Made by a program: the position numbers and the translations under genes
Shown: positions 46,192-52,026 of the stretch, one piece after another
Numbering within the stretch: position 1 is the stretch's first letter
How the letters are laid out: every line of letters begins with the position of its first letter
The notes under the pieces: generated by a model
What the model saw: the letters and a program-made list of their open reading frames with translations, nothing else
Told to the model about the DNA's origin: nothing
Database searches by the model: none
Source of the DNA: Pseudomonadaceae bacterium
GTDB lineage: Bacteria > Pseudomonadota > Gammaproteobacteria > Pseudomonadales > Azotimanducaceae
Direction of reading: 5' to 3'
Assembly (NCBI GenBank): GCA_024743175.1
Contig: JANSXA010000011.1
Coordinates: forward strand, 1 to 64,000
Length of the DNA stretch: 64,000 bases

Positions 46192-47071
46192 ATTTGCATT
46201 GATACGTGAGGTGGTGCGCCATCTTGCGGATCGTGCTCAGGGACCCTGGGTTGCCGTTGGCCCCGGTGATGATGCAGCTGTTATGCGGCAAACCCAGGGT
46301 CATGACGCTGTCGCGTCAATTGACACGCTGATTGCAGACGTTCATTTCCCCGCCAGCGCGCCAGCTTTCTATATTGGTTATCGAGCGCTCATGGTCAGTC
46401 TGTCTGATCTTGCTGCAATGGCAGCACAGCCCCGTTATGTGCTGGTAGCGTTGACTCTACCGACGGCAGACGTCTCCTGGGTTGGTGAGCTGGCGCAAGG
46501 CATGGCGGCCGCCGCTCGAGATTGTGATACGTACATCTGCGGCGGTAATTTTGCTCGCGGTCAGCTGAGTATAACCGTTAGTGTTCATGGCGAGGTGCCG
46601 ACGGATAAAGCCGTTACCCGTGCCGGTGCGCGGGTTGGCGATCAGCTTTTTGTGAGCGGTCCTCTGGGCCTTGCCGCTGCCTGCGTTCGGCAGCAGAATT
46701 TTCAGTTGCGCGATCAGCTGAGCGCCTTGCAGAAGGCTTATTTCATGCCTCAGGCGCGCTTTGATCTCTTAGCCGTTTTGCGCGCAAACGCCCACGCTGC
46801 CATTGATATTTCCGATGGGCTGCTGGCCGATGCGGGTCATCTGGCGCAGGCATCTGAAGTTGCTCTGAACATTAACTCCGCGGATCTGCAACTTACCGAG
46901 GGTGTGACGTTGACAGACGCCTTAAAAGGCGGGGACGACTATCAATTGCTTGCAATCGCGGACAAACCTCTGGCCGGCATGGTCAGCATAGGACAGGTCA
47001 TCGAGGGCAGCGGCGTCAGTCTTGACGGCGTAGAGCAGCAGCCTGACGGTTATAATCATTTTGTCGCTTAG
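46184..47071 (+). CDS. thiL: Thiamine-monophosphate kinase
   Basis: ThiL phosphorylates thiamine monophosphate to the active diphosphate. The 295-residue protein has VGPGDDAAV (about 26, metal-binding aspartates), IDTLIADVHF (about 45), MVSLSDLAAMAAQPRY and AIDISDGLLADAGHLA (about 205-220). The order nusB-thiL-pgpA is widespread in proteobacteria. Confidence 0.95.
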   Translation: MDEFALIREVVRHLADRAQGPWVAVGPGDDAAVMRQTQGHDAVASIDTLIADVHFPASAPAFYIGYRALMVSLSDLAAMAAQPRYVLVALTLPTADVSWVGELAQGMAAAARDCDTYICGGNFARGQLSITVSVHGEVPTDKAVTRAGARVGDQLFVSGPLGLAAACVRQQNFQLRDQLSALQKAYFMPQARFDLLAVLRANAHAAIDISDGLLADAGHLAQASEVALNINSADLQLTEGVTLTDALKGGDDYQLLAIADKPLAGMVSIGQVIEGSGVSLDGVEQQPDGYNHFVA

Positions 47072-51346: not shown

Positions 51347-51832
51347 TCAGGTCTTATTCTTTTTTGCCATTGAATCCAGGAACTTCAGTAACACCAGTGT
51401 TTCTGCGGGGTCCATGCGACCTACCGGGGAATTACTGTAGGTGGACGCCATGACTTTGCCATCGCCGCGCAGAATAAACTCGGAAGGCTGGATGTGGTCT
51501 CGTCGGGGTTCCCACCAGGCGCCAATTGTTTCCGTATCCTGCTGAGTCATACCAAATGCCACGGGAAAATTCAGATCGGCAGCCACTTCCAGGGTTTGCT
51601 CTTCTGTATCCACGGTGCCTGCAATGAGGGTTACGCCAAGGGATCTGTAATCGTCCAGTCTCGCTTCGAAGCCGGCTAACAGTCGGCGGCAGAAGGGTCA
51701 CCAGTGGCCGCGGTAGAATAGAACCACTGCATACGGGGTTTCGATCGCTGCTGGCAGGATCATCGTATCACCGCCGGCGATATTCAGGGTCAGCTCAGGA
51801 AACTGGCTGCCTGGGACTAGTTGTTCGCTCAT
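51347..51832 (-). CDS. Selenocysteine-containing peroxiredoxin-like (AhpC/TSA) protein, UxxC motif
   Basis: Read from ATG 51832, after a GGGGGGTG-type Shine-Dalgarno sequence, the frame is interrupted once, by UGA at 51700-51698 (codon 45), and then runs to a stop at 51347: 161 residues in all. Upstream of the UGA comes VVLFYRGHW and downstream PFCRRLLAGFE. In AhpC/TSA-like redoxin relatives the same place reads GHWCPxC, so the UGA stands exactly at the first redox cysteine and gives UPFC (Sec45, Cys48). The remaining part has a normal Prx-like fold pattern (SLGVTLIAGTVDTEE, FPVAFGMTQQDTETIGAWW, FILRGDGKV). A SECIS-like hairpin follows the UGA. The likely role is thiol peroxidase or disulfide oxidoreductase chemistry. 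A nonsense mutation is the alternative. The Sec machinery genes (selABCD) are not in the window. Confidence 0.82.
51664..51695 (-). promoter_or_regulatory. Candidate bacterial SECIS element downstream of the UGA
   Basis: In the mRNA, counted from the UGA, the lower stem CUUC (+3 to +6) pairs with GAAG (+31 to +34). After an internal loop, GCCG (+11 to +14) pairs with CGGC (+24 to +27); an A-C mismatch and one more C-G pair close the apical loop UGUUA. The loop has G at +18 and U at +19, within the 16-37 nt spacing described for bacterial SECIS elements and similar to the loop GU of E. coli fdhF. Confidence 0.65.
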
Positions 51833-52026
51833 TTCACCCCCCATTTGTGTCTGTCCATCCTAGCGCGAACGAAGAGGCAGTGTATGCTACAAACCCCCCC
51901 ATCTGGTCAGACAAGCGAAACTTCATGCGGAAGGGGAAAGCTTGATATGCTGCGCGCGGGTGGAAGTAGCCGGGCGCTAGATCTGGCACATCACCCAAGT
52001 AGAGTTGGATAAATAGAAGGTAAAAA

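Follow-up and report, generated by a model that had tools for sequence, protein, structure and literature searches.

A probable peroxiredoxin-fold UxxC selenoprotein gene with an in-frame UGA, in a family whose SECIS element appears to lie in one of two places

The window, by which we mean the whole 64,000-nucleotide stretch of contig JANSXA010000011.1 (assembly GCA_024743175.1) that was analysed, carries on its minus strand a reading frame that starts with ATG at 51832, ends with a TGA terminator at 51347 and comprises 161 residues. Only one codon interrupts it, the TGA at position 45 (51700-51698), in the context GHW-U-PFC. The features at the locus are as follows.

51347..51832, minus strand: coding sequence of a predicted Prx-like UxxC selenoprotein, 161 residues with predicted Sec at 45 (from the frame, Pfam, homologues and dN/dS)
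51837..51842, minus strand: GGGGGG, Shine-Dalgarno-like, 4 nt 5' of the ATG (read from the sequence)
51698..51700, minus strand: in-frame UGA, codon 45, predicted selenocysteine (from the frame and the codons of homologues)
51689..51691, minus strand: codon for Cys48, which completes the UxxC pair as its second member (all 80 loci kept have Cys here)
51671..51687, minus strand: hairpin HP1, predicted SECIS, GCCGACU-GUU-AGCCGGC, loop at 51680-51678, one A.C mismatch in the stem

This arrangement, one UGA at codon 45 followed by an open frame, is the one described by the first-pass annotation, which had also placed a Shine-Dalgarno sequence before the ATG at 51832. That part stands only in a weaker form, since a G-rich GGGGGG is present at 51842-51837 and a perfect AGGAGG is not. 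The headless 88-residue fragment (51347-51613) expected from ordinary gene calling is indeed present, with a GTG start, and by itself it matched no Pfam family. When the whole frame was searched with Cys at position 45, it matched AhpC-TSA (PF00578) at 7.3e-15 (55.4 bits, cut-off 26) and, as a second Pfam family, Redoxin at 1.5e-6, while no NCBIfam model matched the protein at its cut-off. The AhpC-TSA match covers residues 8-128 and thus crosses codon 45, in agreement with the claim that family sequence is kept on both sides of the UGA. The locus is a real gene, and its internal "stop" is best read as selenocysteine.

A scan of genome contigs confirmed 165 relatives, the best 80 of which were kept for codon reading. 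The first-pass annotation had located the UGA at the position of the family's first cysteine and proposed a search of homologues at position 45; among the best 80 of 165, that search returned only TGA (55 loci) or Cys (25 loci; 14 TGC and 11 TGT), so that every one of the 25 non-TGA loci has Cys there. Codon 48 encodes Cys in all 80. Identity to the window protein in the same set was 54-76% for the TGA loci and at most 46% for the Cys loci. Close homologues were pooled into 76 rows, of which 73 are distinct, and every one of the 73 has TGA at this codon, unlike ordinary stops, because the natural end stops of the same 73 sequences are mixed (TAG 27, TGA 23, TAA 23). The pooled rows contain no insertions, 69 of the 73 are ungapped across codons 5-149, and the first stop past codon 45 falls at codon 155-169 in 72 of the 73. 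Neither a different stop in close relatives nor a degraded 3' half, which the first-pass annotation had named as grounds for giving up its reading, was therefore found: the codon is always TGA, and the one frame that does not end at codon 155-169, that of locus L072, stays open. In L072 (4001-4640) the family likeness ends after residue 125 and the frame is open to 213; a rearranged 3' end and an assembly join are possible explanations.

Selection on the protein appears on both sides of the codon. Between the window gene and its nearest relative dN/dS was 0.08 before the TGA and 0.07 after it, and values after the TGA were at most 0.21 in 11 of 12 pairs. The twelfth pair (L039/L049) gave 0.96, with dN and dS both at 0.019, so that changes are too scarce for a verdict. 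In the part before the TGA, the pair L112/L113 reached 0.71 and two pairs were without synonymous change.

The gene was found in 21 of 58 related genomes (the window's own included), always with TGA and always within the window's genus; at E 1e-20 it was present in 0 of 21 genomes from other genera of the order. A search of the genus recovered it from 23 of 40 genomes, with TGA in 23 of 23, and among 369 genomes sampled evenly across the class and searched at E 1e-35, it occurred only in the window's own. Phage records gave no match to the protein at 1e-5. Matches were present in 40 plasmid records, all with less than 60% identity. Gene neighbours, read by eye, include none common to the whole family, and some close relatives have theirs in common.

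The prediction that the host possesses SelA, SelB, SelC and SelD was borne out by a search of its genome, and the absence of selB and selC, named beforehand as a reason to abandon the selenoprotein reading, was not observed. The tRNA-Sec gene (selC) scored 71.7 bits against a cut-off of 47, with the anticodon tca reported by ARAGORN, and selA and selB (519 and 425 bits) lie directly upstream of it, giving selA-selB-selC in a row. SelD (268 bits, cut-off 125) occupies the C-terminal side of a frame of 725 residues, and the N-terminal side of that frame matched TIGR03169 above its cut-off, which indicates an Ndh-SelD fusion; SelD thus stands behind a pyridine nucleotide-disulfide oxidoreductase domain (L100:4476-6653, minus strand). 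It resembles the Ndh-SelD fusions known from the GOS data, as far as the available text of that survey describes them (PMC2398784). A weak selD match inside the window, at 46232-46906, was rejected as it proved to be thiL (237.6 bits, cut-off 184).

A survey of selB among hosts covered 50 of the 80 loci kept. selB exceeded its cut-off in 22 of the 25 hosts of the TGA form, the other 3 showing no selB, and in 8 of the 24 hosts of the Cys form; the two groups do not make a clean comparison, because the Cys hosts belong mostly to other phyla. Within the genus, where 37 genomes were searched, selB was found in 15 of 21 genomes with the gene and in 12 of 16 without it, and therefore selB does not predict the gene and the genus as a whole uses Sec. 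Under stricter filters, tRNA-Sec was detected in 13 of the 21 gene-bearing genus genomes, and selB or tRNA-Sec in 16 of the 21. The five genomes that have the TGA gene and in which neither was found (G010, G012, G015, G020 and G029) are drafts of 64-96% completeness, and missing contigs are the likely cause.

With regard to the protein, the motif RGHW-C/U-P-x-C is invariant in alignment A3, which holds 28 TGA and 8 Cys rows. The structure model, made with Cys for Sec, has a mean pLDDT of 94.6 and resembles peroxiredoxins among the matches listed, Bcp4 being first (TM 0.84, 16% identity). In a profile alignment with a solved 1-Cys peroxiredoxin, U45 aligns with the Thr of FTPVC and Cys48 with its Cys, which points to an oxidoreductase of the UxxC type built on a peroxiredoxin fold and not to a plain peroxiredoxin. 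The first-pass name, a peroxiredoxin-like UxxC protein, thus agrees with the AhpC-TSA match and is refined by the position of U45. Judged by model and alignment, the protein most likely works as a UxxC thiol oxidoreductase, and peroxidase activity is possible. The same alignment separates it from Sec-containing peroxiredoxins of the TxxU type, where Sec takes the Cys position of TxxC: the peroxiredoxin fold is common to both, but in the window protein Sec would take the place of the Thr, and Cys48 that of the Cys.

Proteins of this description have been reported under several names. In the portions of the sources available, the "Prx-like protein" of the Sargasso Sea comprised 22 sequences in 2005, 21 of them with UXXC (PMC1088965), "Prx-like 1" of the GOS data (2008) comprised 225 sequences with pfam00578 and UxxC (PMC2398784), and a 2026 review lists a "Prx-like thiol:disulfide oxidoreductase" with PF00578 and UxxC or UxxU (PMC13188914). 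The window gene has the PF00578 domain, a UGA aligned to Cys and Sec machinery in its host. It shares with these selenoproteins, so far as the texts describe them, the AhpC/TSA domain, UxxC, the existence of Cys homologues and a SECIS-like hairpin after the UGA, and part of its family departs from them in having a hairpin at 39 nt from the UGA. Likened by way of these published descriptions, the window protein fits the Prx-like UxxC selenoproteins of 2005 and 2008.

Comparison of sequences makes it very probable, in our judgement, that the locus is a peroxiredoxin-fold UxxC selenoprotein gene in which SelB and a SECIS direct Sec to UGA 45, Cys48 resolves, and the family's SECIS appears to lie at HP1 or at a second hairpin, HP2. 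The two further TGA redoxins of the genome, with hairpins after their TGA, also speak for this reading; against it count the weakness of the window's own HP1, the gene-bearing genus genomes in which neither selB nor tRNA-Sec was found, the three other hosts showing no selB, and the small number of independent HP1/HP2 contrasts. SelB with Sec-tRNA would bind the SECIS hairpin just past UGA 45, as the machinery genes and the conserved hairpin suggest, and selenocysteine would be inserted at codon 45. Sec45 would then attack an oxidised substrate, either a disulfide or a peroxide, after which Cys48 would resolve Sec45 as a selenenylsulfide that a cellular thiol system would reduce. The frame is open whichever residue the TGA encodes, and the codon might accordingly be read as tryptophan or another residue with no Sec involved, either because the genetic code has changed or through simple readthrough; we regard this as highly improbable, since the window gene and 22 other distinct homologues terminate in TGA, the aligned residue is Cys in 25 of 25 non-TGA loci, and the host has the full Sec machinery together with a frozen hairpin downstream of the UGA. 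A pseudogene or sequencing error, in which the TGA would simply terminate translation and the sequence behind it would be dead, is hardly credible at all, for although a single TGA interrupts the frame and standard calling yields the 88-residue fragment, the same codon is TGA throughout the 73 distinct homologues, dN/dS is low downstream of it and 72 of the 73 frames end at codon 155-169.

The hairpin of the window gene itself was compared with the bacterial consensus. According to the part of the review available, the loop of a bSECIS measures 3-9 nt, carries a G among its first two nucleotides and lies 16-37 nt from the UGA, the upper stem has 4-16 bp and the MFE is -7.5 kcal/mol or lower, and some SECIS elements fall outside the 16-37 nt model (PMC13188914). 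HP1, with its loop GUU 17 nt after the UGA, lies within the rule for loop and distance and is like the consensus in its short apical loop of G then U. It is unlike the consensus in its stem, which consists of 4 + 2 bp around the A.C mismatch, and in its low energy: the 17-nt core gave -4.8 kcal/mol and longer stretches -6.0 to -9.5, the lowest with another fold. A folded stretch of 81 nt was no better than shuffles (z 0.19). Taken by itself, then, the window's HP1 would be a weak SECIS candidate, given the mismatch and energies set against the published limit of -7.5 kcal/mol.

The family as a whole provides a clearer pattern. Synonymous entropy drops directly behind the TGA: as a fraction of its maximum, it was 0.55 in codons 51-60 vs. 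0.76-0.95 in the decades outside 41-70. Classed by motif, 70 rows fell into groups of 21 and 49, three rows with N being left out; an earlier split by pair count gave 17 and 56 rows, with L127, L039, L049 and L128 in the HP2 group, and the entropies quoted by class come from that split. In the 21 rows, the window's among them, codons 49-54 read CGC CGN CTG TTA G.., with CTGTTAG in 21 of 21 and the HP1 loop GUU at 17 nt. The 49 rows carry HP2, GARCGC-CGUGNN-GCGYUY, whose loop starts 39 nt after the UGA, 2 nt beyond the range of the consensus. There, HP2 forms 6.00 of 6 pairs vs. 4.63 ± 0.10 when codons are redrawn by background usage. In the HP2 class of 56 rows, codons 58, 59 and 61 hardly vary (entropy 0.05, 0.00 and 0.07).

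Pairing was also examined by within-column codon shuffling, which left a small excess in the 49 rows (HP1 6.41 vs. 6.32 ± 0.02, HP2 6.00 vs. 5.95 ± 0.02) and no excess of note in the 21 rows (HP1 6.14 vs. 6.09 ± 0.04). This near-equal pairing means that HP1 in the 21 HP1-only rows is a matter of frozen letters, not of covariation. Alignment A2 holds 73 rows, of which 69 are distinct. In it both partners had changed at 5 of the 6 pairs of HP2 and at 2 of the 7 of HP1; both-side cells numbered 26, where shuffling gave 7.7 and sliding the partner by 1-3 columns gave 8-18, and 88% of cells were paired vs. 25-41% after sliding. A prediction fixed beforehand was applied to two new genus homologues, and both had 6 of 6 HP2 pairs and CGTG, one of them also CTGTTAG, although two are few. 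No obvious SECIS remnant was seen by eye in the three Cys homologues L073-L075.

Sequence comparison suggests that the family's SECIS occupies either of two sites within one coding sequence, HP1 (17 nt) or HP2 (CGUGNN, 39 nt). The signal for recoding thus seems to have shifted its position while the frame stayed ungapped. HP2-type genes keep the HP1 stem and not always the HP1 loop. We lean towards the interpretation that the SECIS moved repeatedly between loops at 17 and 39 nt, 22 nt apart, with two-hairpin genes as intermediates and the old hairpin serving as a spacer helix that brings the SelB-binding loop within reach beyond the standard distance. The more doubtful alternative is a single composite SECIS in which HP1 is always the SelB site and HP2 is an accessory element, or reflects another constraint, in part of the family. 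Such a composite would accommodate the retention of the HP1 stem in the 49 HP2-type genes (6.41 of 7 pairs vs. 4.54 ± 0.16 after codon redraw), the persistence of CTGTTAG beside HP2 in 9 of the 49 (and in the new L130), and an HP2 loop outside the 16-37 nt given in the available part of the review (PMC13188914). It sits poorly with the apex of HP1, however, since codons 51-52 are relaxed in the HP2 class (entropy 0.83 and 0.80) where the HP2 codons are nearly invariant, and the first loop G is missing in 22 of the 49 HP2-type genes vs. none of the 21 others (Fisher 6e-5, counting sequences, not events); moreover, the CGUG of HP2 recurs in the loops of SECIS-like hairpins of paralogues.

A protein tree that left out columns 44-64 (81 rows, 8 of them Cys; 139 columns; many forks open) requires 6 changes between the HP1 and HP2 states, at least 4 of them on well-supported branches. 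Four independent pairs on supported branches showed the HP1 apex changing in the expected way in about 3 and in the opposite way in none (p 0.25), and for the loop G alone the expected change occurred in about 1 of the 4 and the opposite one in none; the switch does not reach significance because the independent contrasts are too few. We found no description of a two-position SECIS in the open-licence literature searched. If true, it would offer a natural series of aligned, ungapped genes for testing the distance and loop rules of SelB, and a spacing that the standard prediction model omits.

Ordinary gene calling breaks this gene, and the genomes of the genus carry several UxxC redoxins with an in-frame TGA. 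The window's own genome has two more such UxxC frames, at G000:C14:216285-216914 and C14:439769-440278, both matching AhpC-TSA. As loci these two frames are the following.

L104:1261-1890, plus strand: UxxC redoxin frame on contig C14, with in-frame TGA
L107:1270-1887, minus strand: UxxC redoxin frame on contig C14, with in-frame TGA

Relatives of the frame at 216285-216914 were matched 53 times in the genus, across 33 of the 40 genomes; an internal TGA is present in 51 of these matches, and the remaining 2 are fragments that do not reach across it. Of these paralogues, 31 loci were read out, and all 31 have TGA at the aligned codon with a hairpin about 20 nt later (in 2 of the 31 the script put another hairpin first), the loop being CGUGA, CGUGC, CGUGG, GGUUC or GGUCC. 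Weaker redoxin relatives with one TGA occur in otherwise stop-free frames of about 380-420 residues (e.g. G026:C99, G030:C279 and G017:C144), and these are possibly fusion selenoproteins.
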